From: Burkholderiales bacterium RIFCSPLOWO2_12_FULL_61_40
GTDB lineage: Bacteria; Pseudomonadota; Gammaproteobacteria; Burkholderiales; Burkholderiaceae_C
Assembly: GCA_001770935.1 (NCBI GenBank)
Contig: MESI01000043.1
Coordinates: forward strand, 1-64,000
Direction of reading: 5' to 3'
DNA: 64,000 nt
The position numbers were made by a program, and so were the translations under genes. Below, in pieces: positions 44,899-61,065 of this stretch. Position 1 is the stretch's first letter, and every line of letters starts with the position of its first letter. The notes below the pieces were generated by a model. The model was not told where the DNA came from, did no database searches, and saw only the letters and a list, made by a program, of their open reading frames with translations.

Positions 44899-45076
44899 GG
44901 GGATTTCTCCGATTGGGAATAGGGACAAGAGGCTACCAGATGCACCCCCGCACCAGAAAAGCACAGTTCGTATGGAAGGCAGGGCAGGGCTTGGAGGCTG
45001 CGGCCAAAGCCCCGTGAGCCGACCTCTGGATCAACGTTCTCTTTGAGGTTTTCGGGTCCAGGAATGTTCATGGCGC

Positions 45077-46699
45077 TCACGGCAACAGATTCAGCCCCAG
45101 CTCTTTCAAAAAGGCGTTGTGCTTTTGCTTAGCCGCCACAATCGCCTTTTCAATTTCGACCAATTCGCCATGCGTGGCAGCCAAATCAATCTCTGCCTCA
45201 CCCACCGCCGTGCTGATGTAGCGCGAGATGTTCAGGTTGAACTCGTTCTTCTCGATCTCTGCCATCCCCACCCGGCGTGAATAGCGTGCCTCTTCCTCGC
45301 GGAATTGGTAAGTTTTGATGATCTTGGCAATGTGCGCATCCGTCAGCTGGTTCTGGCGCTTGCCTTTGACAAAGTGCTCCGCCGCATTGATGAACAGCAC
45401 GTCGTCCGGCTTCTTGCACTTCTTCAGCACCAAGATGCAGACCGGGATGCCGGTGGAATAGAACAGGTTGGATGGCAGCCCAATCACGGTGTCGATGTGG
45501 CCGTCTTTCAACAGCTTGGTGCGGATACGCTCTTCCGCACCGCCACGGAAGAGAACGCCGTGCGGCAGGATGATGGCCATCACCCCCTCGTCTTTCAAGA
45601 AATGAAAGCCGTGCAGCAAAAAGGCAAAGTCTGCGGCGGACTTTGGCGCCAGGCCGTGGTTTTTGAAGCGCACATCGTCAGCCAGAGCGTCAGTAGTGTC
45701 CCAGCGATAGCTGAATGGCGGGTTGGCCACGATGGCATCAAACGATGGTTTTTTGGCCGGGTTCAGCTCGCGCAGGATGTCCCAGTCGTTGGTCAGCGTG
45801 TCGCCGTGGAAGATTTCAAACTCGGTGTCCTTCACCCCGTGCAGCAGCATGTTCATGCGCGCCAGGTTGTAGGTGGTGATGTTCTTCTCTTGCCCGTAAA
45901 TCTTGCCAATGCCATGCTGCCCCATGCGCTTGCGCACGTTCAGCAGCAGCGAGCCCGATCCGCAGGCAAAGTCCATCACGCTGTCGAGCCGCTGTTTCAC
46001 CCCCGTTTTGGGCTCTTGGCTATCCAGTGTGACGATGGTGGAGAGGATGTCCGAGATTTGCTGCGGCGTGTAAAACTCGCCCGCCTTCTTGCCGGAGCCC
46101 GCAGCAAACTGGCCAATCAGGTATTCATAGGCATCACCCAACGCGTCCATTTCCCTGGAGAACTCTGCCAGCCCATCGGCGATCTTCTGGATGATGGTGC
46201 AGAGCTTGGCATTGCGCTCCGTGTAGGTCTTACCCAGCTTGGGCGAGGCCAAGTCGATTTCTGAAAACAGGCCCGAAAACGTGCTTTGAAACGACTCGGT
46301 TTCAATGTACTTGAAGCCTGCCTGCAACGTGCTCAGCATTTCTGCGTTCTGCGTGCGCGCCATGTTGGCAATGCTGCTCCACAGGTGCAGCGGCTCAATC
46401 ACGTAATGCACCTTACGGCGCATCTGCTTTTCAAAAGCGGGCACGTCGCTCAGGTTTTCCTCATACCAGATTTGAAGAGGCGTGCTCGCTCCGGTTTTCT
46501 GTAATACATCTGCCGCGATATCGGGGTAGTCGCTACCCAGCTCCTTCTTGGCCGCAGCCTCATAGTTGTCAGACAGGTAGCGCAGGAACAGGAAGGACAG
46601 CATGTAGTCGCGGAAATCGTCCGCGTCCATGGCCCCGCGCAGTTGGTCGGCAATGGCCCAGAGGGTCTTGCCCAGTTGTTTTTGGTTTTGTTCGGTCAT
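45077..46699 (-). CDS. hsdM: Type I R-M DNA methyltransferase subunit HsdM
   Basis: FYTPQQISDILSTIVTLDSQEP, VMDFACGSGSLLLNVRKRMG, FDAIVANPPFSYRW (NPPF). Confidence 0.95.
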   Translation of the reverse strand: MTEQNQKQLGKTLWAIADQLRGAMDADDFRDYMLSFLFLRYLSDNYEAAAKKELGSDYPDIAADVLQKTGASTPLQIWYEENLSDVPAFEKQMRRKVHYVIEPLHLWSSIANMARTQNAEMLSTLQAGFKYIETESFQSTFSGLFSEIDLASPKLGKTYTERNAKLCTIIQKIADGLAEFSREMDALGDAYEYLIGQFAAGSGKKAGEFYTPQQISDILSTIVTLDSQEPKTGVKQRLDSVMDFACGSGSLLLNVRKRMGQHGIGKIYGQEKNITTYNLARMNMLLHGVKDTEFEIFHGDTLTNDWDILRELNPAKKPSFDAIVANPPFSYRWDTTDALADDVRFKNHGLAPKSAADFAFLLHGFHFLKDEGVMAIILPHGVLFRGGAEERIRTKLLKDGHIDTVIGLPSNLFYSTGIPVCILVLKKCKKPDDVLFINAAEHFVKGKRQNQLTDAHIAKIIKTYQFREEEARYSRRVGMAEIEKNEFNLNISRYISTAVGEAEIDLAATHGELVEIEKAIVAAKQKHNAFLKELGLNLLP

Positions 46700-47796
46700 G
46701 TTTCGCTATCGTCGTTGCCTTCGCCACGCAGGTCTTGGTGGGCTTCAATTTCTTCACGGTCACGCTGCAGTTCCAGCCGCAGCTCTTCTTCGCTGGGCAA
46801 CACCAAACGGTACTTGCTGGCAAAAAGCTGTTCACTGCCATTGAGCACGGAGTAGCGCACCACTGACTTGTCTTTGCTGCCGCACAGCAAAATGCCAACC
46901 GTGGGGTTGTCGCCCTCGCCCCGGCGCAGATCGTCGTACATGCGCACATACATGTCCATCTGCCCGACATCCTGGTGCGTGAGTGGCCCGGTTTTCAGGT
47001 CGATCAGCACAAAGCACTTGAGCAGGTAGTTGTAAAACACCAGGTCGATGTAGAAATCCTGCGTTTCGGTGCTGATGCGCTGTTGGCGGGCCACAAAGGC
47101 AAAGCCCTTGCCCAGCTCCATCAAAAACTGTTGCAGCTTGTCCATCAAGGCAGTCTCCAGCTTGGCTTCCAGCAGGCGGCCCGTGTCGGGCAGACCCAAG
47201 AACTCCAGCATCACCGGGTCACGCACAAAAGCGCGTGGCGATTGTTCCAGTGCGCCCAGGTTTGTCTGCGCTTCGGCGGTCACGGCTGCCTTGTCTTGGC
47301 TTAACAGTAGGCGCTCAAAATACAGACTGCCAATTTGCCGCTCCAGCGCGCGCGTACTCCAGTTTTGTGCTGCTACCTCTTGCACATACCACTGCCGCGC
47401 CTCGGCGCTGTCCACCCGCAGCAGCAGGCGGTAATGCGTCCAGCTCAATTCGTGACGCAATGCGTCACGAATTGGAAATGCCTGGTAAAAAAGCCTCATG
47501 TACCGCAGGTTCGATGCATCAAAGCCTTTGCCAAACTCGCGGGTCAGAGACTGCGCCAAGGTGGCCAGCAATGCCTTGCCGTGCGCAGCCCTGTTTTTGC
47601 CGCCCTGCTCAAATTCGACGATGTGCCGCCCGACCTGCCAGTAGGTCTGCACCTGCACCGTATCCACCGCCCGCAGCACCTGTTGCCGAGAGTCTCCAAT
47701 GAGTTGGCGCAGGGCGTCCAGCAAAGGCGAAAAGCCTTCGAGAGTGCTGGCTACTTTTTCGGGTTTCCCCAAAGGGTTATTGCGGTGTTCGATCAT
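46696..47796 (-). CDS. DUF1016 / YhcG-type PDDEXK-fold protein
   Basis: QTYWQVGRHIVEFEQGGKNRAAHGKALLATLAQSLTREFGKGFDASNLRYMRLFYQAFP, DLVFYNYLLKCFVLIDLKTGPLTHQDVGQMDMYVRMYDD. Confidence 0.9.
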   Translation of the reverse strand: MIEHRNNPLGKPEKVASTLEGFSPLLDALRQLIGDSRQQVLRAVDTVQVQTYWQVGRHIVEFEQGGKNRAAHGKALLATLAQSLTREFGKGFDASNLRYMRLFYQAFPIRDALRHELSWTHYRLLLRVDSAEARQWYVQEVAAQNWSTRALERQIGSLYFERLLLSQDKAAVTAEAQTNLGALEQSPRAFVRDPVMLEFLGLPDTGRLLEAKLETALMDKLQQFLMELGKGFAFVARQQRISTETQDFYIDLVFYNYLLKCFVLIDLKTGPLTHQDVGQMDMYVRMYDDLRRGEGDNPTVGILLCGSKDKSVVRYSVLNGSEQLFASKYRLVLPSEEELRLELQRDREEIEAHQDLRGEGNDDSET

Positions 47797-48794
47797 TGTT
47801 TCGGGCGGCGTTTGATGGTGTTTTCCAGCGCTTTCAGGTCGGCTTCGTCTTGCTGGTCGGCCTGCAGTGCCTCCTGCTGCTTGCGACGCTGGTCGAAGTC
47901 TTGGTAAAGCGTATTCGTCTTTGCTTCCATTTGCGCATGGCTCACTGCGCCTGCGTGCGTGAGCACAGGGAATCCGTTAGAGCTGATGATCTGATCCACG
48001 TTCTGCTTCCAAAAGGCCATGCGGATTTCCTGGCGGCTCTTGGTGCGCAGCTCTGCCGTTTCAAGGAAGATGACCACCAGCCGGTTCAGGGTGTCTATTT
48101 CATCCTCGGTCAGGTAATTCTTAGCTACCAGAATGTCCTGCTTGCGCACCTGGGCGCCCTTCCAGTGCATCAGGCCAAAGTTCAGGTCTTCGCGATTGGC
48201 CCGGGCGGTAATGAGTTCGGCAGCCGTCTTTTGCGTCACGGCGTGGAGCAACAGGTTTTGCACCGTGGCAAAAAAGATCTGCGTGGCCTGGTCCGTCTTG
48301 TCGTAGTCGCTGCTAAGGGCAAACAGCTCGCGCACCTTCTGATAGAAGCGCTTTTCCGAGGCCCGTATGTCCCGGATGCGCGCCAGCATCTCGTCGAAGT
48401 AGTCCGGGCGACCATCCGGGTTCTTCAGCCGCTCGTCGTCCATCACGAAGCCCTTAAGCAGGTACTCCTTCAGCACAGTGGAGGCCCAGCGGCGGAACTG
48501 CACGCCACGCGGCGAGCGCACCCGGTAGCCCACGGCCAGAATGGCATCCAGGTTGTAGAGCTGTGTTTGGTAGCGTTTCCCGTCTGCGGCAGTTGTCAAG
48601 GATTCCTTGACAACTGCCTCTGCATCCAGTTCACCGTCCTCAAAGATATTTTTGAGGTGTAAAGAGATGTTCTGTTTGGTGGCGTCAAATAGCTCCGCCA
48701 TTTCAAGCTGTGTCAGCCACACCGTACCCAGATCAGCCCGAAGCCGAATTTGGCTTTTTCCGTCCTCGGTGGTGTAAAGAATCAAGTCGTTCAT
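47793..48794 (-). CDS. RhuM-family protein
   Basis: VWLTQLEMAELFDATKQNISLHLKNIFEDGELDAEAVVKESLTTAADGKRYQTQLYNLDAILAVGYRVRSPRGVQFRRWASTVLKEYLLKGFVMDDERLKNP. Confidence 0.92.
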   Translation of the reverse strand: MNDLILYTTEDGKSQIRLRADLGTVWLTQLEMAELFDATKQNISLHLKNIFEDGELDAEAVVKESLTTAADGKRYQTQLYNLDAILAVGYRVRSPRGVQFRRWASTVLKEYLLKGFVMDDERLKNPDGRPDYFDEMLARIRDIRASEKRFYQKVRELFALSSDYDKTDQATQIFFATVQNLLLHAVTQKTAAELITARANREDLNFGLMHWKGAQVRKQDILVAKNYLTEDEIDTLNRLVVIFLETAELRTKSRQEIRMAFWKQNVDQIISSNGFPVLTHAGAVSHAQMEAKTNTLYQDFDQRRKQQEALQADQQDEADLKALENTIKRRPKQ

Positions 48795-49981
48795 AGTGCA
48801 GGGGTCGCAGTAGCCCTTTTTGCGGGCCGCTCAAAGATGTCGGGCAGCGCGAATTCGTAGCGCCTCAAAAAAGCATCAAGAATTTGCCGGAACAACTTCT
48901 TGTTGTCGTCCACCATCTCCGAAGGCTGGTAGATGTCGTACTTGCCGTGGCTCAGCAGATTGAGTGCACGGGAAAACAGGTCCGCATCCGCCAGCCCGTG
49001 AATGCAGGCCGAGAAATCGTCACACCCAAAAAAGGTGGCTGTCTTCTCCAGAATGCTGCGCAGCATGTTGAAGTGGTAGGTGTAGAGCGTGCCGCCCTGG
49101 GATGCCTTTTGCAGCTCTGCCAGCATCGAGACATGGTGAAAGAACGGCGTGTCATCCGTGGCGCGCAGCGTGTAGGTGGTGCCGCGCTCAGGGCGCTGCA
49201 GCAGGTACTTCTTGTGTGCGTCTTTCTTCAGCTCATTGCACACCACATTGAAGAACAGGGAATGGTGGGACGAGATCACCGCCTTGATGGGCGCGGGGAC
49301 CATGCGCGGCGGGTTTTCGGCCTCGCCCGGCCCATCGGCCACCACGGCTTCAGGCCGGGTTCTGCTCTTGGCCTTGCGCAGCAGCTTGGCCAAATCGCTG
49401 GCAACAGCAATGGCATTGTTGTCGTCCAGCGAGGTTATGGGGTCGTCAATGTAGAGGTACTTCACCCACGAATATGTCTCCAGCCCGTCGATCACGCGTT
49501 CACAAATGGCCATGAACACACACCAAATGAAGATGTTCTCCTCGCCACGGGATACCTTGATGTGGCGCGCATCTTCACCCTTGCGAAAGCTGATGGCCCA
49601 TTGGTCGTAGTCAATGTCGAACAGAAAGTCGGCATAACGGCCCAGGTAGTGGCCGATGCGCTCATCCAGAGCCAAGTCCTTCAAACCCTTGAAAAACTCC
49701 GAATCTGTGTTGATATGCAGCCGCCGCTCGCTGTCGTTCGCTAGGTCGTTGTCCCAAGAGAACAAGTCTTCGGTGAACGCATTGAAATACAGCGTGTCAG
49801 GTTTACCCTTGTTTTTCCGCTTGCCAGCATCCTTAAACTCCATAGATACACGGGTTTTACCCGTGCCGTTATAGGCATAGAGCAGCACAAAATCCTGATT
49901 GCCACCATTCAGGTCATCGCGCAGCCGGGTGACCAATCTGCGCATGTCCGTGAAGCGATGAATCTTCAACTTCTCGCTCAT
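48791..49981 (-). CDS. prrC: PrrC-like anticodon nuclease (AAA ATPase-ACNase)
   Basis: 396 aa; LLYAYNGTGKTRVSMEFK, LYFNAFTEDLFSWDNDL, KVSRGEENIFIWCVF, YLYIDDPITSLDDNNAI, AVISSHHSLFFNVVCNELKK, HFNMLRSILEKTATFFG...LLSHGKYD. Confidence 0.85.
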   Translation of the reverse strand: MSEKLKIHRFTDMRRLVTRLRDDLNGGNQDFVLLYAYNGTGKTRVSMEFKDAGKRKNKGKPDTLYFNAFTEDLFSWDNDLANDSERRLHINTDSEFFKGLKDLALDERIGHYLGRYADFLFDIDYDQWAISFRKGEDARHIKVSRGEENIFIWCVFMAICERVIDGLETYSWVKYLYIDDPITSLDDNNAIAVASDLAKLLRKAKSRTRPEAVVADGPGEAENPPRMVPAPIKAVISSHHSLFFNVVCNELKKDAHKKYLLQRPERGTTYTLRATDDTPFFHHVSMLAELQKASQGGTLYTYHFNMLRSILEKTATFFGCDDFSACIHGLADADLFSRALNLLSHGKYDIYQPSEMVDDNKKLFRQILDAFLRRYEFALPDIFERPAKRATATPAL

Positions 49982-50002
49982 GGCTCAGCCGCCTGCGCCG
50001 AA

Positions 50003-50041
50003 GGGAAAATCTGCTGCATCAGCCCATTTTTTGTAGGTCTT
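50003..50041 (-). pseudogene. Remnant of hsdS 3' end between fic and prrC
   Basis: gggaaaatctgctgcatcagcccattttttgtaggtctt vs gggaaaagctgctgcatcagcccttttttgtgggtctt at 51301. Confidence 0.7.
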
Positions 50042-50120
50042 AAAGATTTCTGGTTTTGGGGGCTGATCTGTCATGGTACGTGAGTGGATGGCGCGGCTTC
50101 TTTAACCAAGAAGTGTTTTT

Positions 50121-50148
50121 AGTTAAAGTTAAGCTGATTTCTTTAACT
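50121..50148. repeat. Small inverted repeat at the fic 3' end / upstream of prrC
   Basis: agttaaag - 12 nt - ctttaact. Confidence 0.5.
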
Positions 50149-51276
50149 AATGAAAGCCTTCATGTAAGGTTCGCACACATAGACGCGCCCCCGTTGTTGC
50201 CCTGTCAGCTCTTTGAGCAGGTTCTTTTCCAGAAACACCTTCACCAGTGCATTGGCTGTTGGGGTGCTGATACCCAGCTCCGTTTGAACATCTTTGGCCG
50301 TCAGAACAGGCTTGCGGTAAATCAATGTCAGCAAACGGCTCGCCAGCTCCCCCCGTTTACCCATCGTTAAGACGAGCTTGTCAAATTCAGCACGCAGATG
50401 AAGAACTTGACGAAACACATCCCGCCCTTTGATGGCGGTCTGCTCCACCCCATTCAAGAAAAAGAGCAACCAATGGGTTAAGTCATTGCCTATGCGAACC
50501 TTCATCAACGCATCGTAATAACTGGCACGGTTGCGTTCAAAAAAGTCGGACATATACAGCGAAGGCTTTTCCAATAGCCCATGACTGATCAGGTAGAGCG
50601 GAATCATCAACCGCCCAATACGTCCATTCCCATCCAAGAAGGGATGAATGGTTTCAAATTGGTAGTGACTGATAGCAGCCCTGATTAAATGCGGAACATG
50701 AATGTTCTCGTTGTGCCAAAACTTTTCCAGGTCACCCATCAGATCGGGGACACTGTTCTGGTGCGGTGGAATGAAAGCCGCATCGGAAAGGCCAGAGCCC
50801 CCAATCCAGTTCTGACTGACGCGAAATTCGCCGGGTTGCTTCGTTTTTCCCCGCACACCACTCATCAGTATGGCGTGCGTTTGTTTGAGCAGGCGGTTGG
50901 AGAGTGGCAACCGCTTTAACTCCGCAACCGCCCCATTCATGGCATTCACATAGTTGCGCACCTCGCGCCAATCGTCACGCTTTTCAATGGCAATGTGCTC
51001 TTCGGGCATCACCGCTTCGTCAAAAGCGGTTTGCATCCCTTCAATGCGACTGGAAGTTTGGGCTTCCTTGGTAATGTGCATTTGAATGAACAGATCAATA
51101 TCGGGGACGATCAGAGAAAACGCATTCAACTCACCGAGCACTTTGTTGGCGCGCTCCAGCATGGTGTTGATTTGCGGATTTTCCCAACTCCATTCCACAT
51201 TGACCGGGACAGGCTGGAAACTCTTGTATTGGTATTGGGGTTGCCAGATGCCCGACTTGAAGTCTTCTACTTTCAT
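50143..51276 (-). CDS. Fic-family AMPylase-type protein
   Basis: Canonical HPFLDGNGRIGR motif and inhibitory-helix-like TSSRIEGMQT; 4-bp overlap with hsdS. Confidence 0.93.
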   Translation of the reverse strand: MKVEDFKSGIWQPQYQYKSFQPVPVNVEWSWENPQINTMLERANKVLGELNAFSLIVPDIDLFIQMHITKEAQTSSRIEGMQTAFDEAVMPEEHIAIEKRDDWREVRNYVNAMNGAVAELKRLPLSNRLLKQTHAILMSGVRGKTKQPGEFRVSQNWIGGSGLSDAAFIPPHQNSVPDLMGDLEKFWHNENIHVPHLIRAAISHYQFETIHPFLDGNGRIGRLMIPLYLISHGLLEKPSLYMSDFFERNRASYYDALMKVRIGNDLTHWLLFFLNGVEQTAIKGRDVFRQVLHLRAEFDKLVLTMGKRGELASRLLTLIYRKPVLTAKDVQTELGISTPTANALVKVFLEKNLLKELTGQQRGRVYVCEPYMKAFIS

Positions 51277-52553
51277 ACTGCTTCCTCGCTGGCATTTTGT
51301 GGGAAAAGCTGCTGCATCAGCCCTTTTTTGTGGGTCTTGTGGGTTTCGAGTTCTTGGGTTGCACAGGTGATGAGGTCATTGATAGATGTGATGCATTCAG
51401 CGATGCGAATCTGTTCAAGCTCATTTGGAATGAATGTCTTGATATTTTCGATCTGTTGCGCTGATAAATTTGGTGGCTCAGCCCCAGAAATACTTTTCTC
51501 AATATCACCTATCGTTTGCTGACATTGAAGCAAAAAGTAGACAAACGGCATGTGGTGCGTTGTCACCAATTTGCCAACTCGCTGCTTCAATAAGGCTCCG
51601 GCAAAGGTCTGATCAACTTGCGCCATCTTTAGCTGGCCACTTAATATTGGACGCGTCAAGGCAATAACATAATCGCCCTCCGATACCGAGAATTTTTCAA
51701 ATTGCTTCTTGAATTGAAAAGGCAGATGAGACGGGGTGCTGTGACTCATCTGCTGGATACCCACATCGGCAATTTTTAACCATCGCACTCCGTTTTCGAC
51801 ACTATCGTTGCTTGAAAACGCGAAGCCTTGAAAAATTGAAAACACGTCTTTCAGGGAATATTTTTTCCATTCCCCCACATCACGGAACTCAGGAAACCGA
51901 AGACGCGGTTGAGTTTCACCTTCGCGGGGGAAAAGCTGCTGCATCAGCCCTTTTTTATGGGTCTTGAGCGTGTCCACTTTGCGGGCTTGCGCGGCGATCA
52001 GTTCGTCCAACGAACTCAGGCAATCGGCGATTTTTTGTTGTTCAGCTGAGTTTGGTGTTGGGATCGCCACGCCAAAGAAGGCCTCTTTGCTGATATTCAA
52101 GAGGCCATTGCTTCGCGCACCGCTGGTAATGTGTTTTTTAAGCTGCTTCCCGTGCGCATTCGACTCAAAGCAGTTTTGAAAGAAGCCATTCGAATAGCCT
52201 GCTTTGAGTCGAAAACAAATGAAGACACTTGGGGCGGCAACCTGTCCCCATCCCTGCAAGAGATAAATGCAACCTTCCGGGAACTTGAGAGAGTTGCCTT
52301 TGTTGTAGACAAAATCGCCATCCCTTGCCAGCGTGTAGAGCTGATATTGATTGCCTGAAATATCTCTGCCGAATTTTTCCGCTTGTGGAACAAACCCAAT
52401 GCCAGCAGAAATGCTCACGGGAGTCAGTTTCCTTTCCCCAACACGTTCAGCCACGGGGATAGAAGCCTCCCTAAGCGAAATCGGTCGCCAAGGTTCAGCC
52501 TCCCGAAACTCCGAAAACCGCAGCTTGGGCACTAACTTTTTGTCTTCACTCAT
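51273..52553 (-). CDS. hsdS: Type I R-M specificity subunit HsdS
   Basis: Two-TRD architecture, repeats KTHKKGLMQQLFPREGETQPRLRFPEF and KTHKKGLMQQLFPQNA, N-terminal PKLRFSEF. Confidence 0.94.
   Translation of the reverse strand: MSEDKKLVPKLRFSEFREAEPWRPISLREASIPVAERVGERKLTPVSISAGIGFVPQAEKFGRDISGNQYQLYTLARDGDFVYNKGNSLKFPEGCIYLLQGWGQVAAPSVFICFRLKAGYSNGFFQNCFESNAHGKQLKKHITSGARSNGLLNISKEAFFGVAIPTPNSAEQQKIADCLSSLDELIAAQARKVDTLKTHKKGLMQQLFPREGETQPRLRFPEFRDVGEWKKYSLKDVFSIFQGFAFSSNDSVENGVRWLKIADVGIQQMSHSTPSHLPFQFKKQFEKFSVSEGDYVIALTRPILSGQLKMAQVDQTFAGALLKQRVGKLVTTHHMPFVYFLLQCQQTIGDIEKSISGAEPPNLSAQQIENIKTFIPNELEQIRIAECITSINDLITCATQELETHKTHKKGLMQQLFPQNASEEAV
52159..52213. repeat. Perfect 15-bp-arm inverted repeat inside hsdS
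   Basis: ttcgactcaaagcag - 25 nt - ctgctttgagtcgaa. Confidence 0.9.
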
Positions 52554-53932
52554 TTCAATACGCTCCGGCCTTTATCCGTCAGGCGGTATTGCTGCAGGCG
52601 GCTGCTGGGTTTGTCGGGCAGGGTTGGCTCGATCCACCCCTTTTCCAGGGCCGGGTGCAGGTAGTTGGCTTTGAAGGTGGGGCGGTGTTTGAGTGCAAGC
52701 CTCTGCTGAATGTCTGAAGGCGCCAGCGGCCCATTCAGCAAGGTTTGCAGAAGCCGGGCGACTGGGTCGGTGACTGGGTCGGTGACTGGGTCGCTTACTT
52801 GCTCACTGACTGGTGCCATCTCCTCATCCGCATGCACCGGCCTGCTGGCGGGAAACGTGATGCGCAAGAAGTTCTCCGTAAAGCGAAAGCACTCCGGTCC
52901 AAAAAATTCGGTGATGCGGGGCAGGCCCGAGCCGAGGTGTTCCACCATGTCCAGGTCTCTAAATACGCGCATCAGCTCTTTGTTGCGCGGTATGGAGTAG
53001 CCCTCAAAAAACTCGGCTTGGGTCAGGCCTTCGGGCAGTGCGCAGGCAGAGGTGAGTTCGATGCGGTCGGCAAATATCTCGAACTTGGGCGGCACCTCGC
53101 GGGTGTAGTCGTTGTGGACGATGGCGTTAATCACCGCCTCGCGCAGGGCGATGGGGCTCCACAGGCGCACGTCGATCCGCTCTTTGGCGGTGATGGTGCT
53201 GGCAGTTTTGTTTTCCAAATCGAGCTTATCGAGCACGCTTTTGGTGGCTTTGATGAGGGAGCAGTAGCCGTATTCGTTGCTCTCGATGAGGTGCACACGG
53301 TCTTTGCCCCGGTATTTGGCCACTTTGATGGACGTGCCGTTTTCATCGGCCAGCAAGTAGGCGGCGTAGTTGAGCGCCCCGTCTTCGGTGGTCAGCTCCA
53401 GGTTGGTTTTGAACTGCCTGTTCAGCGGCTTGCGCTTTTCATCGTAATAAATGCGCAGCTGCTCGAAGCTCAAGGCTTGTCGGTGCGATTTGATTTTGCC
53501 AATGGAATTGCGGGTGCGGGTGGCAAAGAGTTTTTCGACCATGGCCACAGGCATGGGCTCGGCAGCAGTGCCTATGCGCAGGAAGCAGCCTTTTTCGCTG
53601 AGGCCGTATTTCTTTTTGGCGTAAGGCTTTTCGCTGCCACTGGCCACGATGATTTTGATGCAGTGAACGCCTGGGGGCTGCTCCTCTTCCACCAGATCAA
53701 ACAAGCCCATGGCGGAGGGACTGATGTTGTGTTTGATGCGGTCTTTCACTTTGAGCATGTCGCCATCTACATCGGCCACGCCCACGCGCGCGCCCGTTTT
53801 GTCTATGCCCAGGTAAATAAACCCGCCCTCGGGGGTGTTGAGAAAGGCGATGACTTCTTTCTCCAGGTCGAGGTCTGGCGTGAGTTCACGCTTGTATTCG
53901 ATGCGGTGGGTTTCAGGCATGGGCACACTCAT
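52550..53932 (-). CDS. AlbA_2 (Schlafen-like) ATP-binding protein, paralogue 2
   Basis: THRIEYKRELTPDLDLEKEVIAFLNTPEGGFIYLGIDKTGARVG; REAVINAIVHNDYT; C-terminal wHTH. Confidence 0.88.
   Translation of the reverse strand: MSVPMPETHRIEYKRELTPDLDLEKEVIAFLNTPEGGFIYLGIDKTGARVGVADVDGDMLKVKDRIKHNISPSAMGLFDLVEEEQPPGVHCIKIIVASGSEKPYAKKKYGLSEKGCFLRIGTAAEPMPVAMVEKLFATRTRNSIGKIKSHRQALSFEQLRIYYDEKRKPLNRQFKTNLELTTEDGALNYAAYLLADENGTSIKVAKYRGKDRVHLIESNEYGYCSLIKATKSVLDKLDLENKTASTITAKERIDVRLWSPIALREAVINAIVHNDYTREVPPKFEIFADRIELTSACALPEGLTQAEFFEGYSIPRNKELMRVFRDLDMVEHLGSGLPRITEFFGPECFRFTENFLRITFPASRPVHADEEMAPVSEQVSDPVTDPVTDPVARLLQTLLNGPLAPSDIQQRLALKHRPTFKANYLHPALEKGWIEPTLPDKPSSRLQQYRLTDKGRSVLK
52760..52807. repeat. 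12-bp tandem repeat (DPVT linker)
   Basis: gactgggtcggt x2, gactgggtcgct, degenerate fourth unit. Confidence 0.85.
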
Positions 53933-55410
53933 TTCAACAATGCCTTTCCTTTTTCAGTCAAGCGGTATTGCTGCAGACGGCTGTTGGGTTTGTCGGGGAT
54001 GGTGGGTTCGATTAGCTCTGCTTGTAACAGTCTGGCCATGGCGGCCTTGTAGTTGCCGGTTGGTTGCCCATAGCCAAGAGCGTTCAATAGGGCACTGCGG
54101 CCCAGTGGCAGTGAGGCGAGCGAGGCCATTATTTTTCGTTCGGTTTCCGTCTGGGGCACCGGGGCCTTGACTGGGGCCATGACTGGGGCCTCGACTGGGG
54201 CCTCGACTTGCGTGGTGACTGGGTCGGCCACGCCGTCCTGCTGAGCATTCGGCCGCCACACTTGGGCGGTGAACTGATTGCCGCGAACATCGTCGATGAG
54301 TTCAATCTGCGGCCACTCTTCCAGCGCACGGGGTATGCCGCTGCCCAGGCCACGGTAAGGCAGCAGCTTGAAGGCGTGCTCGGTCAGCGTGGGGTTGCGG
54401 CGGTTGGTTTTCCCTTGGCGTATGTCTGCAATGCTCAGGCTGTCGGGCAGGTGGCCGGGGCTGATGATTTCGATGCGGTCGCGAAACACCAGGATGCGGA
54501 TGGAGGCGCTGGTGAAGTAGTCGCGGTGGATGAGGGCGTTCACCAGTAGCTCTTGCAGGGTCAGTTCGGGCACTTCCAGCAGGCCCAGCGAATTAAAGCC
54601 CTGGTCGCCCTGCACGCGGTGCAGGTTGCGTTTGATGAAGGCCAGCGCCTCGGTGTATTGGGTGGGCAAGGTGCCGCTGATGTCCTGGCTGTCCTGGTAG
54701 TGGCTGTCGGCAATGCTGGTGCCGTAAAAGGCCACGGCCTTGATGGAATACGCGGGCCGCCAGCGCTGCTGGTTGCGGCCAAATAGCATAAGACCAGCCA
54801 GGGTGAGTTCGCGGCCGTCGCCCAGGCCCAGGTTTTGCAGCACCGAGTCCAGTGGCTGCGCTGGGTCTGGTTGGTTGGCTCCGTAGCGCTGTTCCAGGTA
54901 ACGACGAAAGGCAGCTTCATCCAGGTCGGCGCTGGTGGTGTCGGCCACGGGCACCACGTCGGCATACACCAGCCCGGCGCGCTGGAACATGCGCTGCATT
55001 TCTTCTCGTGCGGTGACGTGGCGTTTGTCAGCACCTTGTTTGACCCAGATGCTGCCTTGGTGGTCCAGGTAAGGCTTGGCCAAGCCATCGGGAATGGTCA
55101 CCACGATTACCAGCCCGGCGTGGGTGAGTACGTTTTCCGTTAGCGGGTGCACGGGCGGACGCAGGTGCTGGCTGGCGGCGTTGCTCAGCATCTGATTCAG
55201 GCGGCGCACTTCGGCAGCATCCAGCCCTGCAATCGAGCCATCGTCGTTGATGCCAATAAACAGCGTGCCGCCGCCACTATTGGAAAAGGCCACCAGTTCG
55301 GCTGCCAAGGCATCGGGGCTGTTGAAGGTGCGTTTGAACTGCTGGCGGCTGTGCTCGCCCAAGACGATGCGCTGCAACAGTTCAGCCTCAAGCAGGGCTT
55401 TATGACTCAT
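53929..55410 (-). CDS. AlbA_2 (Schlafen-like) ATP-binding protein, paralogue 1
   Basis: EHSRQQFKRTFNSPDALAAELVAFSNSGGGTLFIGINDDGSIAGL; QELLVNALIHRDYF; C-terminal wHTH related to paralogue 2. Confidence 0.9.
   Translation of the reverse strand: MSHKALLEAELLQRIVLGEHSRQQFKRTFNSPDALAAELVAFSNSGGGTLFIGINDDGSIAGLDAAEVRRLNQMLSNAASQHLRPPVHPLTENVLTHAGLVIVVTIPDGLAKPYLDHQGSIWVKQGADKRHVTAREEMQRMFQRAGLVYADVVPVADTTSADLDEAAFRRYLEQRYGANQPDPAQPLDSVLQNLGLGDGRELTLAGLMLFGRNQQRWRPAYSIKAVAFYGTSIADSHYQDSQDISGTLPTQYTEALAFIKRNLHRVQGDQGFNSLGLLEVPELTLQELLVNALIHRDYFTSASIRILVFRDRIEIISPGHLPDSLSIADIRQGKTNRRNPTLTEHAFKLLPYRGLGSGIPRALEEWPQIELIDDVRGNQFTAQVWRPNAQQDGVADPVTTQVEAPVEAPVMAPVKAPVPQTETERKIMASLASLPLGRSALLNALGYGQPTGNYKAAMARLLQAELIEPTIPDKPNSRLQQYRLTEKGKALLK
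54161..54220. repeat. 12-bp tandem repeat (APVE/APVM/APVK linker)
   Basis: ggggccttgact ggggccatgact ggggcctcgact ggggcctcgact tgcgtggtgact. Confidence 0.85.
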
Positions 55411-58400
55411 ACGCATTCAGCCCAGAAATATCGCGCCCCTGCGCACGTTTGGTCAGCAGCGGTACCAGCTCTTTCATCAGCGCCAGTTCAGCTTGGGCGC
55501 GGGCTTTCCACCCCAGGTCCAGCGGGGCCATCAGGTCGCTCAAGGCCTCGCCGTCAAAAATCATGCGCTGCAAGATGCCGTCCACAAAGGTTTGCAGGGC
55601 AGCGGGGGTTAGCTGGTGTTGGGTGGCGATGGTGGCGAGTTCGCCAGCGTCCTTTTCCTTTTTGAACCGGGTGTAGCCCTCGCGGATGGCGGTCTCGCTC
55701 AGGCCCTCGCCTGCCTTCAGGGTGTTGATGTACGCAGCAATGTCGTCGCGCTCGTTCATGAACTTGGCATCGGCCTGGATAAGGCCAATAAGCTGTTCGC
55801 GGCTCATGGTCTGCTTGGTGCCCGACCCCTGCTGCGAAAAGCGGGACATGAGGCCCATGATGTAGTCGTAGTCGATCACTGCGCTGGCAAAGAGCACGAA
55901 CTCGAAGTCGAGCTGGCCCACATCGGCCGAGTCATCGCCTTTCGCCTCGCCCCCCTTGTCCTGCTGGGCCTGTTGTTGCTTCAGACGCTGGGCTGTTTCC
56001 AGGTAGGCGCCGCGAAAGCCTTGCAGGTTTTCTGCGGGCAAGATGTGCTCTATGGCGGTGGCGTTGTCTTCGGTCTGGTCGGTGTATTGGTCCAGCTGGG
56101 TTTTGAGGCGCTGCACTTCTTTGAAGTTTTGAATGAAGGCGGCGCGGGCCTCGTCGCCCTTGAGGCTGTGCACGGCGTCGGGCGTGCAGGCCAGGCCTTG
56201 GCTTTGCATGAAGTCGGCCAGCTTGGTGACGGCGGCGTCCAGCTTCTGGATGACGACAGGGGCCTTGTCCACCAGCCAGATCTTGCGGGCCTCTTCGCCC
56301 GACTTCTCGCCCGAGAACAGGGCAATGGCGGCGTCCACATTGCCTTGCTGCTGGCGGAAGTCGAGGATGTTGCCGTAGGGCTTGGTGCCATTCAGTACGC
56401 GGTTGGTGCGCGAGAAGGCCTGTATTAAGCCATGGTGCTTGAGGTTTTTGTCCACGTACAGGGTGTTGAGGTACTTGGAGTCAAAGCCGGTGAGCAGCAT
56501 GTCCACCACGATGGTGATGTCGATCTTCTTGGCAGCGGGGTAGTCGGCATTGGGCCACTGCTGGTCTTTGATGCGCTTTTGCACGTCCTGGTAGTACAGG
56601 TCGAACTCGCTGATGGTGTGGTTGGTGCCGTAGCGGGTGTTGTAGCTGACCAGGATGGCTTTGAGTGCGGCTTTTTTGCCCTCGGGGTCTACCTGGTTGT
56701 CTTCTTTTTCTTGGGGCAGGTCTTCTTGAATTTGCTTGACATCGGCATCACCCTCGGCGGGCGGCGAGAACACGCCAGCGATGTTGAGCGGCTCAAAGGC
56801 AGGGTCGGCTTCTTGCTTGGTTTTTTGAAGGTCTGCAAAGAGCTTGTGGTACTCGATGGCGTCATTGATGCTGGCGGTGGCCAGCACGGCGTTGAACCTG
56901 CGCCCAGCGGTGGCCGTGTCGTGCTTGGACAGGATGGCTTCTATCACGGCCTTTTTGGCCAGGGCCTCGCCGGGCTTGGGTGGGTTCTTGCCCTCGGGCT
57001 TGAAGTAGTCCACATGGAAGCGCAGCACGTTGGCGTCTTCAATGGCGTGGGTGATGGTGTAGGCGTGCAGCTGCTTTTGGAACAGGTCTTCCGTGGTGCG
57101 GAACTGCCCCTCTTCGCCCTCAAACTGCTTGGCCGTGGCGTTGGCCTCAAAAATGGGCGTGCCGGTAAAGCCAAACAGCTGCGCCTTGGGGAAGAACTCT
57201 TTGATGGCTGTGTGGTTGTCGCCGAATTGGGAGCGGTGGCATTCGTCAAAAATGAAAACGATGCGCTTGTTGCTCAACGGTGCCAGCTGCTCTTTGTAGG
57301 TGGCTTTGCCGTCTTTCTTTTGCTGTTTGTTGCGCTTGCTGTTCTCATCCAGCGCCAGGCCCAGCTTCTGGATGGTGGTGACGATGACTTTGTCGGCACG
57401 TTCGTCAGACAGCAGGCGGCGCACCAGCGCGGCGGTGTTGGTGTTTTCTTCGACGCAGCCTTCCTGAAAGCGGTTGAACTCCTCGCGGGTCTGGCGGTCC
57501 AGGTCTTTGCGGTCCACCACAAAAAGGCATTTCTCCACGTCGGGGTTGTCCTTCAGCAAGGTGGATGCTTTGAAGGATGTGAGCGTTTTGCCGCTGCCGG
57601 TGGTGTGCCAGATGTAGCCGTTGCCGCAGTTCTGGTGGATGCAGTCCACAATTTGCTTGACGGCATACATCTGGTAGGGCCGCATCATCAGCAGCTTTTG
57701 TTCGCTGGCCACCAGCACCATGTAGCGGCTGATGGTTTGGCCCAAGGTGCATTTGACGAGGAACCGTTGAGCAAACTCGTCGAGCTGCGTGATCTTCTTA
57801 TTGGCCTCGTCCGCAAACTGGTAGATGGGTAGGAAGCGCTCGTCCGCATTGAACGCAAAGTGCCGCGCGTTGTTGTTGGCGAAGTAGTAGGTGTTGGTGC
57901 GGTTGCTGACGATGAAGAGCTGCAAGAAGCTCAGCAGCGTCTTGGTGTAGCCGTTGCCGGGGTCGTTTTTGTAGTCAACGATCTGCTCCATGGCGCGGCG
58001 CGGGTTGATGCCCAGCGTTTTGAGCTCGATTTGCACACATGGCACGCCGTTGATGAGGATGAGCACGTCATAACGGTGGTGGCTGTTGTCGGTGTTGATG
58101 CGCAGCTGGTTGACGACCTCGAAGGTGTTTTTGCACCAGTCTTTGATGTTGACCAGGGTGTAGTTCAGCGGCGTGCCGTCTTCGCGGGTGAAGGCGTTGA
58201 TGCTGCGCAGGGTCTTGGCGGCGGTGAAGACATCGGGGGTGACGATTTCGTCCAGCAGGCGGGCGAATTCTCCATCGGAGAGATGAACACGGTTAAGGGC
58301 CTCGAACTTCTCGCGGAAGTTGCGCTCCAGTGATGCGCGGTCCCGAATGTCGGCACGGTGCTCGTACTTGAGGCCCTGCAGCTTGCCAATGAAGCCGTAC

Positions 58401-58474
58401 TCGATCTGCTCTTCCTTGACGACGTGACTCGGCTTGCTGGCGGGAGGGTCGTAGGTGAAGTTGGATGAGGACAT
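55400..58474 (-). CDS. hsdR: Type I restriction endonuclease subunit HsdR
   Basis: 1024 aa; QIELKTLGINPRRAMEQI nuclease region, YIWHTTGSGKTLTSFKAS, FIFDECHRSQFGD, GFTGTPIF, FSRTNRVLN. Confidence 0.96.
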   Translation of the reverse strand: MSSSNFTYDPPASKPSHVVKEEQIEYGFIGKLQGLKYEHRADIRDRASLERNFREKFEALNRVHLSDGEFARLLDEIVTPDVFTAAKTLRSINAFTREDGTPLNYTLVNIKDWCKNTFEVVNQLRINTDNSHHRYDVLILINGVPCVQIELKTLGINPRRAMEQIVDYKNDPGNGYTKTLLSFLQLFIVSNRTNTYYFANNNARHFAFNADERFLPIYQFADEANKKITQLDEFAQRFLVKCTLGQTISRYMVLVASEQKLLMMRPYQMYAVKQIVDCIHQNCGNGYIWHTTGSGKTLTSFKASTLLKDNPDVEKCLFVVDRKDLDRQTREEFNRFQEGCVEENTNTAALVRRLLSDERADKVIVTTIQKLGLALDENSKRNKQQKKDGKATYKEQLAPLSNKRIVFIFDECHRSQFGDNHTAIKEFFPKAQLFGFTGTPIFEANATAKQFEGEEGQFRTTEDLFQKQLHAYTITHAIEDANVLRFHVDYFKPEGKNPPKPGEALAKKAVIEAILSKHDTATAGRRFNAVLATASINDAIEYHKLFADLQKTKQEADPAFEPLNIAGVFSPPAEGDADVKQIQEDLPQEKEDNQVDPEGKKAALKAILVSYNTRYGTNHTISEFDLYYQDVQKRIKDQQWPNADYPAAKKIDITIVVDMLLTGFDSKYLNTLYVDKNLKHHGLIQAFSRTNRVLNGTKPYGNILDFRQQQGNVDAAIALFSGEKSGEEARKIWLVDKAPVVIQKLDAAVTKLADFMQSQGLACTPDAVHSLKGDEARAAFIQNFKEVQRLKTQLDQYTDQTEDNATAIEHILPAENLQGFRGAYLETAQRLKQQQAQQDKGGEAKGDDSADVGQLDFEFVLFASAVIDYDYIMGLMSRFSQQGSGTKQTMSREQLIGLIQADAKFMNERDDIAAYINTLKAGEGLSETAIREGYTRFKKEKDAGELATIATQHQLTPAALQTFVDGILQRMIFDGEALSDLMAPLDLGWKARAQAELALMKELVPLLTKRAQGRDISGLNAYES

Positions 58475-58601
58475 GGACTGGGTGAAACGATCAGGCTGGC
58501 AGAAAAAAGGCGCCTCAGCGCCGGTTGATCGATTCTAGGCGTAGGCCTACCCTGTTGGGACACCAAAATGTCGGTGAAAAGAGCGGCAGGGAGGCTGATC
58601 T

Positions 58602-58659
58602 GCTCCTAATTCAATAGCTGTTCGCGCAATGAGTACGGGCGCTAGAGGCCAATTTGCCT
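58602..58659 (+). repeat. Dispersed ~60-bp repeat copy
   Basis: gctcctaattcaatagctgttcgcgcaatgagtacgggcgctagaggccaatttgcct. Confidence 0.7.
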
Positions 58660-58704
58660 CATGCCGCTGGGGGCGCGTCGTTTGGCCATGTAGACGGCGG
58701 GCAT
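58660..58704 (-). pseudogene. Fragment of carbamoyl amidase gene (F1)
   Basis: catgccgctgggggcgcgtcgtttggccatgtagacggcgggcat vs 61189-61254 with an internal deletion. Confidence 0.7.
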
Positions 58705-58762
58705 TAAACTCAACAGGGAGCGTCGCTGCGCGTGCGTCTTGAATCCGTCTGTGAGAAAAACC

Positions 58763-59938
58763 ATGTTGATCAAAAGCCTGAGAGTGTCGAACCTGTTGAG
58801 CTATGGGCCAGATGCAGAGACGGTTGAACTGGGCCCTTTGAATGTGTTGATCGGTCCCAACGGTTCGGGCAAGTCGAATTTTTTGGAAGCGCTGTCGCTG
58901 TTGCAGGCTGCGCCGGATTTGCTAACGCGCCCGATACGGGATGGTGGCGGAATTCAAGACTGGCTGCACAAGACCGGTAAGCCAGGTTCCATGCAAGACG
59001 CTCGGATTGAAGCAGTCATCGCCAGCAACCATAAAGGCCGAAAAAATTTTCGATACGGGCTCGCGTTCAATGAAATGGGCAGCCGCTTTGAAGTGAGCGA
59101 TGAATTTCTGGAAAACGAAAAACCGGATTCAGGAAGGGAGCAGCCGAATTTCTACTACCGCTGGAATCAGGGGAGCCCGGTATTGAATATGCAAGGACTG
59201 GGGGAGCGCAAGTTGTTGCGCGAAACGATCAAGCCCGACCAGTCCATCCTGGCCCAAAAGAGGGATGCGGACCTGTATCCAGAACTAACCTGGGTCGCAG
59301 AGTAATTTCAGGCGATTCGGCTTTATCGCGAGTGGACTTTTGGGCGCTATGCAGCACCGAGGATGCCGCAAAAAACAGATTTGCCTAACGACAAGCTGGA
59401 GCAGGATTGTTCCAATCTAGGTTTGGTGCTCAACCGTTTGAAGGGGAACGCCACTGCTCGGAAGCGGCTGGTCGAGGCGCTTCGCGTTGTGTATGACGGT
59501 ATAGAAGACATTCATGTCAGCATTGATTCGGGGACGGCCCAAGTCTCTTTGATCGAGACCAAGGGTGTCATTCCTGCCACGCGCTTGTCCGACGGTACGC
59601 TGCGCTACCTGGCGATGCTTGCCTTGTTGTGCGATCCATCCCCGCCCCCATTGGTGGGGCTGGAGGAGCCAGAACTTGGGCTGCATCCCGACATGCTGCC
59701 GTCCCTGGCCAAGTTGCTGATCGATGCCAGCTCCCGAGCCCAATGGATTGTGACTACCCACGCACCCAGTCTGATTGATGCACTTTCAGACAACCCCGGC
59801 GCAGTGTTGGTGTGTGAGCGGGAACTGGACGGGACACACATCGAGAGATTGGATGCTGAACACTTGGCGCCCTGGTTGGAAAAGTATCGCTTAGGCGAGT
59901 TGTGGACACGCGGCGAAATCGGGGGGACCCGGTGGTGA
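58763..59938 (+). pseudogene. AAA-family (AAA_21-like) ATPase split by in-frame TAA
   Basis: MLIKSLRVSNLLSYG...LNVLIGPNGSGKSNFLEALSLLQ ... TAA at 59303-59305 ... RLSDGTLRYLAMLALLCDPSPPPLVGLEEPELGLHPDMLP...WIVTTHAPSLIDAL in the same frame. Confidence 0.85.
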
Positions 59939-60070
59939 AAATCAAAAACGATGTCTTTGTTTACGTGGAGGGTGGGGGGAGCGGTTCCCATAGTGCTGCT
60001 TTGCAGGCCGAGTTTCGGCAAGCGGTTGCCGAATTTTTTTCAAGAGCTTCGAATGCGCAAGCCCTGAGTT
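59935..60070 (+). pseudogene. Truncated partner gene of the AAA ATPase (DUF4276/RloB-like N-terminus)
   Basis: GTG start overlapping ATPase stop; VKIKNDVFVYVEGGGSGSHSAALQAEFRQAVAEFFSRAS then junction to amidase-derived sequence. Confidence 0.65.
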
Positions 60071-60130
60071 TCAAACCACCCCCGCCCGCTCCAGCATCGC
60101 ATCCCCAATCTCGTGGCGGCTGCCGCCGTC
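60071..60130 (-). pseudogene. Fragment of carbamoyl amidase gene 3' end (F2)
   Basis: tcaaaccacccccgcccgctccagcatcgcat identical to 61066-61097, then ccccaatctcgtggcggctgccgccgtc resembling 61143-61171. Confidence 0.85.
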
Positions 60131-60263
60131 TGACCAAAAAAGCCCCTACGCACCACCCCGATGGTGGCTCTGCCACGCGGCCAGTTCCAAGGGCCGGATG
60201 CCGAATCGCACGGCGTTTATGGAGACGGGGCATGTATTTCCGAGGGCGGCCTGAGGGCTAGGA

Positions 60264-60590
60264 CTAAGCCTCGTCGTCTGTCATCCAGGCGGGAATATCG
60301 CGTTTCATGTGGAGCACCCGCCATACGTCAATGTGGTCGGCACGCTCCACATAGAAGACCAGGTAGGGGTACTTGCGCAAAGGCCAGGAGCGCAAATTCG
60401 GTATGCCCAATTCATGTGCGTAGCGCGGTGATCCTGTGCCTGCATGCTTGCTGATGTGGGCGTAGGCATGCTCCAATGCATCCACAAAACCAAGCGCCGC
60501 ATCCTGCGCGTCTTGCTCCAGGTAATGCGCTATGGACTGGTCAACGTCTCCCAGTGCCAGCGTGCGCTGAATCAGCGCTTTGGGCTTCAC
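60264..60590 (-). CDS. ParE/RelE-family toxin
   Basis: HYLEQDAQDAALGFVDALEHAYAHISKHAGTGSPRYAHELGIPNLRSWPLRKYPYLVFYVERADHIDVWRVLHMKRDIPAWM. Confidence 0.88.
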   Translation of the reverse strand: MKPKALIQRTLALGDVDQSIAHYLEQDAQDAALGFVDALEHAYAHISKHAGTGSPRYAHELGIPNLRSWPLRKYPYLVFYVERADHIDVWRVLHMKRDIPAWMTDDEA

Positions 60591-60826
60591 TGGAATTTTT
60601 TACCGTTGATGCGCTTGCGCAGACTTTCAAAGTAGCTGGCATCGACAGGCGCAGTGGGGGCAGACTGCGCGCCTGCCAGCAGCAGGCCACGTAACTGTTG
60701 CCGATCCTGGTCCTTGCGGATCAGCTCGCGCACGTACTCGCTGCTGGTGCCGAAGCCACGCGAACCGACTTGCGTGTCAACGAATTCCTTGAGGCCGTCG
60801 GGCAGGGAAATGTTCATGGTGCTCAT
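60587..60826 (-). CDS. ParD-family antitoxin
   Basis: MSTMNISLPDGLKEFVDTQVGSRGFGTSSEYVRELIRKDQDRQQLRGLLLAG; 4-bp overlap with toxin. Confidence 0.9.
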   Translation of the reverse strand: MSTMNISLPDGLKEFVDTQVGSRGFGTSSEYVRELIRKDQDRQQLRGLLLAGAQSAPTAPVDASYFESLRKRINGKKFQ

Positions 60827-60844
60827 TTGAACAATTTTAGGGAC

Positions 60845-60863
60845 TTTGGCAAATTTTGCCAAA
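60845..60863. promoter_or_regulatory. Palindromic ParD operator candidate
   Basis: tttggcaaa-t-tttgccaaa, perfect 9-bp arms upstream of parD. Confidence 0.75.
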
Positions 60864-61065
60864 CCCTCTTCACAGCGCCTAAAGCCGCTTTCAAAAAGAG
60901 CGCAATGCCCTGACGGGTCAAATGCAAGATGACCCTACTGGACGAATACTGAGAGGTGAAATCACCCGACAGCATGCTTGTGCATAAGCATCGGCTAGCT
61001 TCTACATAGGCGCGAGAAAGCCGGATCGTCATCTTCCTTCATATTCGCCTCATACCGCATCTGTC

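Follow-up and report, generated by a model that had tools for sequence, protein, structure and literature searches.

A PrrC-family gene for a predicted anticodon nuclease within a type IC-like restriction-modification operon of a Burkholderiales bacterium

The prrC gene and its operon

The 64,000-nt stretch of DNA analyzed here (the window), from Burkholderiales bacterium RIFCSPLOWO2_12_FULL_61_40 (contig MESI01000043.1), carries a gene of the PrrC family, with the motifs and catalytic triad of that family, linked to the operon of a type I restriction-modification (R-M) system. Taken as a whole, the gene is best explained as an anticodon nuclease that would be held by the Hsd complex and would most probably cut tRNA-Lys, a reading in which we have high confidence. 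It is an additional member of a known family, and as such the finding is sound but ordinary and unsurprising.

The gene encodes a 396-aa protein with ABC-ATPase and HEPN-type anticodon-nuclease parts; its ORF (48791–49981, minus strand) runs from an ATG at 49981 to its end at 48791, 396 codons without an internal stop. A preliminary description had reported a protein of this length bearing PrrC motifs, with no strand given, and all of the motifs that it quoted were located on the minus strand: NGTGKTR, YFNAFTEDLFSWDNDL (residues 65–80), RGEENIFIWCVF (145–156), IDDPITSLDDN (178–188), HFNMLRSILEKTATFFG (303–319), and LLSHGKY (342–348). Its designation of the protein as PrrC-like also holds, as the PADLOC PrrC profile (PDLC02360) matched residues 8–379 (E = 4.6e-134), with other PADLOC families far behind, and the protein aligned from end to end with an orthologue of E. 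coli PrrC (EcoPrrC). Because the PADLOC match is accompanied by relatives of up to 91% identity in other genomes and by a dN/dS of 0.05–0.09 against six of them, the ORF is not a chance one, and the gene is under purifying selection. Searches of PDB sequences and of phage records returned no relatives of the window PrrC.

The surrounding locus, described earlier as type I, is type IC-like, judging from EcoR124-type matches of both HsdR and HsdM. Transcription on the minus strand begins with hsdR (55400–58474; PF12008 EcoR124_C, 7.3e-66; PDB 4bec/2w00, about 1e-110), followed by two accessory AlbA_2/HATPase_c_4 genes (53929–55416 and 52550–53932; each with PF04326, PF13749, and PF21247), hsdS (51273–52553; PF01420; PADLOC Specificity_I, 4e-105), an accessory SoFic-like Fic gene (50143–51276; PF02661, PF13784; PADLOC SoFic, 2.9e-116), and prrC. 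Two more accessory genes, encoding RhuM (47793–48794; PF13310, 2.3e-106; PADLOC PDC-S05), whose ORF shares 4 bp with the end of prrC, and a YhcG/DUF1016 PDDEXK nuclease (46696–47796; PF06250, PF17761; PADLOC PDC-S02), separate prrC from hsdM (45077–46699; TIGR00497 over its cut-off; EcoR124 HsdM, 9.1e-90). The ORFs overlap their neighbors, by 4 bp at most junctions, the sole exception being Fic and prrC, which are 161 bp apart.

The intervening gap contains the decayed 3′ end of an hsdS gene (minus strand, approximate limits 49985–50050), out of the hsdS frame by a 1-bp insertion. The scar matches the junction of hsdS and prrC in a Rhodoferax relative (L001) at 84% identity over 58 columns (2e-14) and the tail of the window's own hsdS at 83% identity over 59 columns. 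The simplest reading of these alignments suggests that hsdS formerly ended directly upstream of prrC, before the insertion of Fic separated the two. We considered a 29-aa ORF in the gap (49985–50074), for which the 47-aa AS1 downstream of Sofic was a candidate parallel, as a small gene or antitoxin and rejected it, as it is not conserved in relatives and consists mostly of the out-of-frame hsdS tail; no promoter or RNA family scored above chance in the 161 bp.

Several other features of the region were observed. The two AlbA_2/HATPase_c_4 genes (52550–55416), between hsdR and hsdS, have Fic-like C-terminal domains (PF21247) and are apparently paralogues. Beside the operon on the plus strand (58739–59938), an ATPase-like gene is present as two ORFs (58739–59305 and 59363–59938) and may be frame-broken. 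The G+C content of the R-M region (45000–61000) is 0.47–0.63, mostly 0.55–0.60, as compared to 0.62–0.68 in the flanks, which is compatible with horizontal acquisition. No tRNA genes were found in the 64,000-nt window.

Motifs, putative catalytic residues, and predicted structure

Conservation was assessed across 98 aligned PrrC proteins, and all positions given here are on the minus strand. In the Walker A motif (NGTGKTR, N38–R44; 49850–49870), G41, K42, T43, and R44 are invariant in 98/98 sequences, as are T70, E71, D72, L73, F74, W76, and N78 of a PrrC-box-like motif, NAFTEDLFSWDNDL (N67–L80; 49742–49783). The corresponding NAFTEDLFxWDNDL block is strongly conserved and common to EcoPrrC and to both PrrC branches described below; we apply the label "PrrC box" by position and conservation only. 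A degenerate ABC signature (SRGEE, S144–E148; 49538–49552) has G146 and E147 in all 98 proteins, and the Walker B/D-loop (IDDPITSLD, I178–D186; 49424–49450) has invariant D180, P181, S184, and D186, the last of these equivalent to EcoPrrC D222. The linchpin (H-loop) histidine, H239 (49265–49267), is likewise invariant (98/98).

A counterpart of the EcoPrrC catalytic triad had been proposed, and the alignment bears this out: R308-x3-E312 (49046–49060) aligns with R320/E324 of the EcoPrrC orthologue and H345, 33 residues past E312, with H356, these being kept in 98, 98, and 97 of the 98 proteins, respectively. R338 (EcoPrrC R349), which the preliminary description overlooked, lies seven residues before H345 in a HEPN-type R338-x6-H345 motif (48947–48970) and is kept in 98/98. 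PrrC and RloC were assigned to the HEPN nucleases, with their Rx4-6H motif, in 2013 (Anantharaman et al., PMC3710099). Because HEPN nucleases carry that motif, R338-x6-H345 is likely the core of the nuclease, with R308/E312 as a supporting pair.

An AlphaFold2 model built from 80 homologues (pLDDT 84.9, pTM 0.78) comprises an alpha/beta head and, after it, helices at 279–296, 302–317, 333–344, and 358–375, without a long coiled coil. Foldseek comparison with the PDB gave Rad50 and SMC heads as the best matches (E about 5e-4, low TM-scores), with retron ATPases lower and no PrrC structure among the matches; a literature search likewise returned no PrrC cryo-EM structure. The predicted model thus supports an ABC/Rad50-like head for the N-terminal part. 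The putative HEPN assignment of the C-terminal part comes from the R-x6-H motif and the helical content, the best Foldseek matches being ATPase heads with no HEPN fold match.

Two types of PrrC and alternative readings

For comparison with EcoPrrC we used a 396-aa protein encoded at locus L082 of the E. coli plasmid CP057689 (hsdM-hsdS-"anticodon nuclease"-hsdR), which we treat as the EcoPrrC orthologue because D287, R320, E324, H356, and segment 284–294 sit at their published positions. The window PrrC is 33.4% identical to it over 344 aligned positions and shares its length of 396 aa, Walker A and B, signature, H-loop, the R320/E324/H356 triad, R349, and linkage to a type IC R-M system. The likeness to EcoPrrC noted previously therefore stands for family and triad; with 33% identity, a different operon order, and a different tRNA-recognition segment, however, the window protein belongs to another branch. 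EcoprrI is arranged hsdM-hsdS-prrC-hsdR, as were 10/11 of the Eco-type loci, whereas the window-type order is hsdR-hsdS-prrC-hsdM, complete in at least 68/87 window-type loci, a lower bound in that most of the others end at contig ends or have no recognized hsdS. The Eco-type PrrCs that we examined share at least 54% identity with the EcoPrrC orthologue. In the tree the EcoPrrC branch forms a clade (99/100), and the window-type sequences form either a single clade or a grade around that branch (43% of bootstrap trees). At least one hsd gene adjoined prrC in all 98 neighborhoods examined. We conclude that PrrC divides into two types matching two R-M gene orders, and that the window PrrC, with the hsdR-hsdS-prrC-hsdM order and T275 in place of D287, lies outside the EcoPrrC branch. 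One further genome, that of a relative from the same family as the window (L130, G142), has an Eco-type prrC in pieces, probably a decayed copy.

A generic AAA_13 or RloC-type ATPase without the PrrC arrangement would be consistent with the Pfam AAA_13 match (42.6 bits, over the cut-off of 36), and RloC shares with PrrC an ABC head and a HEPN-type anticodon nuclease with an R-x3-E…H motif. Published RloCs, however, are 658–897 aa long with a zinc-hook/coiled-coil insert and rarely occur in R-M loci, whereas the window protein, at 396 aa, is within the range of PrrC lengths (341–416 aa) and has no such insert. When 399 genomes of the phylum were searched with the PrrC profile, 16 loci scored 428–483 bits (the window, 446), as compared to 20–53 bits for many ORFs of mostly 620–1,070 aa that fit RloC and other AAA_13 proteins, and in the tree the PrrC and RloC-type proteins were separate clades (100/100), the window protein clustering with the former. 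On length, score gap, and tree we reject this assignment as extremely improbable. It is also very unlikely that the protein has lost nuclease activity, either regulating only the R-M complex or being encoded by a gene in decay: catalysis by the window PrrC is a prediction, and the adjoining hsdS scar shows both decay and insertion, but the ORF itself is intact, all catalytic residues are kept, and dN/dS is low.

EcoPrrC cleaves the anticodon loop of tRNA-Lys, its mechanism and triad mutants have been published, and its segment 284–294, including D287, contacts the wobble base (PMC3014915, PMC2610378). In EcoPrrC this segment reads KYGDSNKSFSY; its branch-specific counterpart in the window PrrC is ATDDTPFFH (A274–H282; 49136–49162, minus strand), and D287 aligns with T275, a threonine in 84/88 of the window branch. 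This conserved replacement, together with the statement of a PrrC review that different PrrCs may have different substrates, would fit an anticodon nuclease with another target or a wider set of targets. Against this stands PrrC170 of Klebsiella quasipneumoniae, an ABC-ATPase anticodon nuclease that confers protection from T1 and T7 and whose induction halts growth; tRNA sequencing identified tRNA-Lys as its specific target (PMC11555353). PrrC170 is 35% identical to EcoPrrC and is encoded in an hsdR-hsdS-prrC-hsdM operon (PMC11555353); a homologue on a K. quasipneumoniae plasmid (L083) shares 34.8% identity with the EcoPrrC orthologue and 56% with the window PrrC. Because this level of identity is that of the window branch rather than of Eco-type proteins, and because the operon order agrees, PrrC170 is very probably a member of the window type, as judged from its published description; unlike that system, the window operon also has Fic, RhuM, DUF1016, and two AlbA_2 genes. 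We thus regard a target beyond tRNA-Lys as rather unlikely and favor tRNA-Lys, for which the host anticodons are UUU and CUU.

Accessory cassettes, proposed mechanism, and significance

Among the 87 window-type loci, RhuM was recognized in 14, YhcG in nine, and Fic in a single one, counts from a search that distant relatives would escape, and because of these frequencies we regard the three as variable cassettes. In three loci of the Eco-type order (L118, L123, and L125; M-S-C-RhuM-R), RhuM also adjoins prrC, which shows that it has become associated with both types of PrrC. R-M operons in which RhuM or Fic/Doc accompanies a PrrC-like gene were reported in 2013 (Anantharaman et al., PMC3710099); the operons in the part of that report consulted resemble the window in combining R-M, a HEPN nuclease, and RhuM or Fic, whereas the window has RhuM and Fic together, plus DUF1016 and two AlbA_2 genes. 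No paper linking PrrC to RhuM and type I restriction was returned by our literature search under those terms.

EcoPrrC is silenced by its Hsd complex and activated by a phage antirestriction factor (PMC3014915, PMC2610378). PrrC in the window is encoded in the same operon as a type IC-like HsdR/S/M enzyme, which by analogy would most likely hold it inactive until a phage product disabled or altered the complex; an NTP-driven rearrangement would then free the nuclease to cut a tRNA anticodon loop, most probably that of tRNA-Lys, and translation would stop. A broader proposal, that PrrCs of the hsdR-hsdS-prrC-hsdM type recognize tRNA differently (through the TDDTPFF segment) and that one Hsd complex restrains PrrC, Fic, and RhuM together, we consider unlikely as a joint claim; if it were true, a single antirestriction event would release all three at once.

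The window thus adds one more candidate anticodon nuclease acting as a guardian of R-M, and the tRNA-recognition segment provides a marker for the split of PrrC into two types by R-M gene order. With several candidate toxins encoded amid the subunits of one restriction enzyme, the operon is also suited to testing whether an R-M complex may guard multiple effectors.
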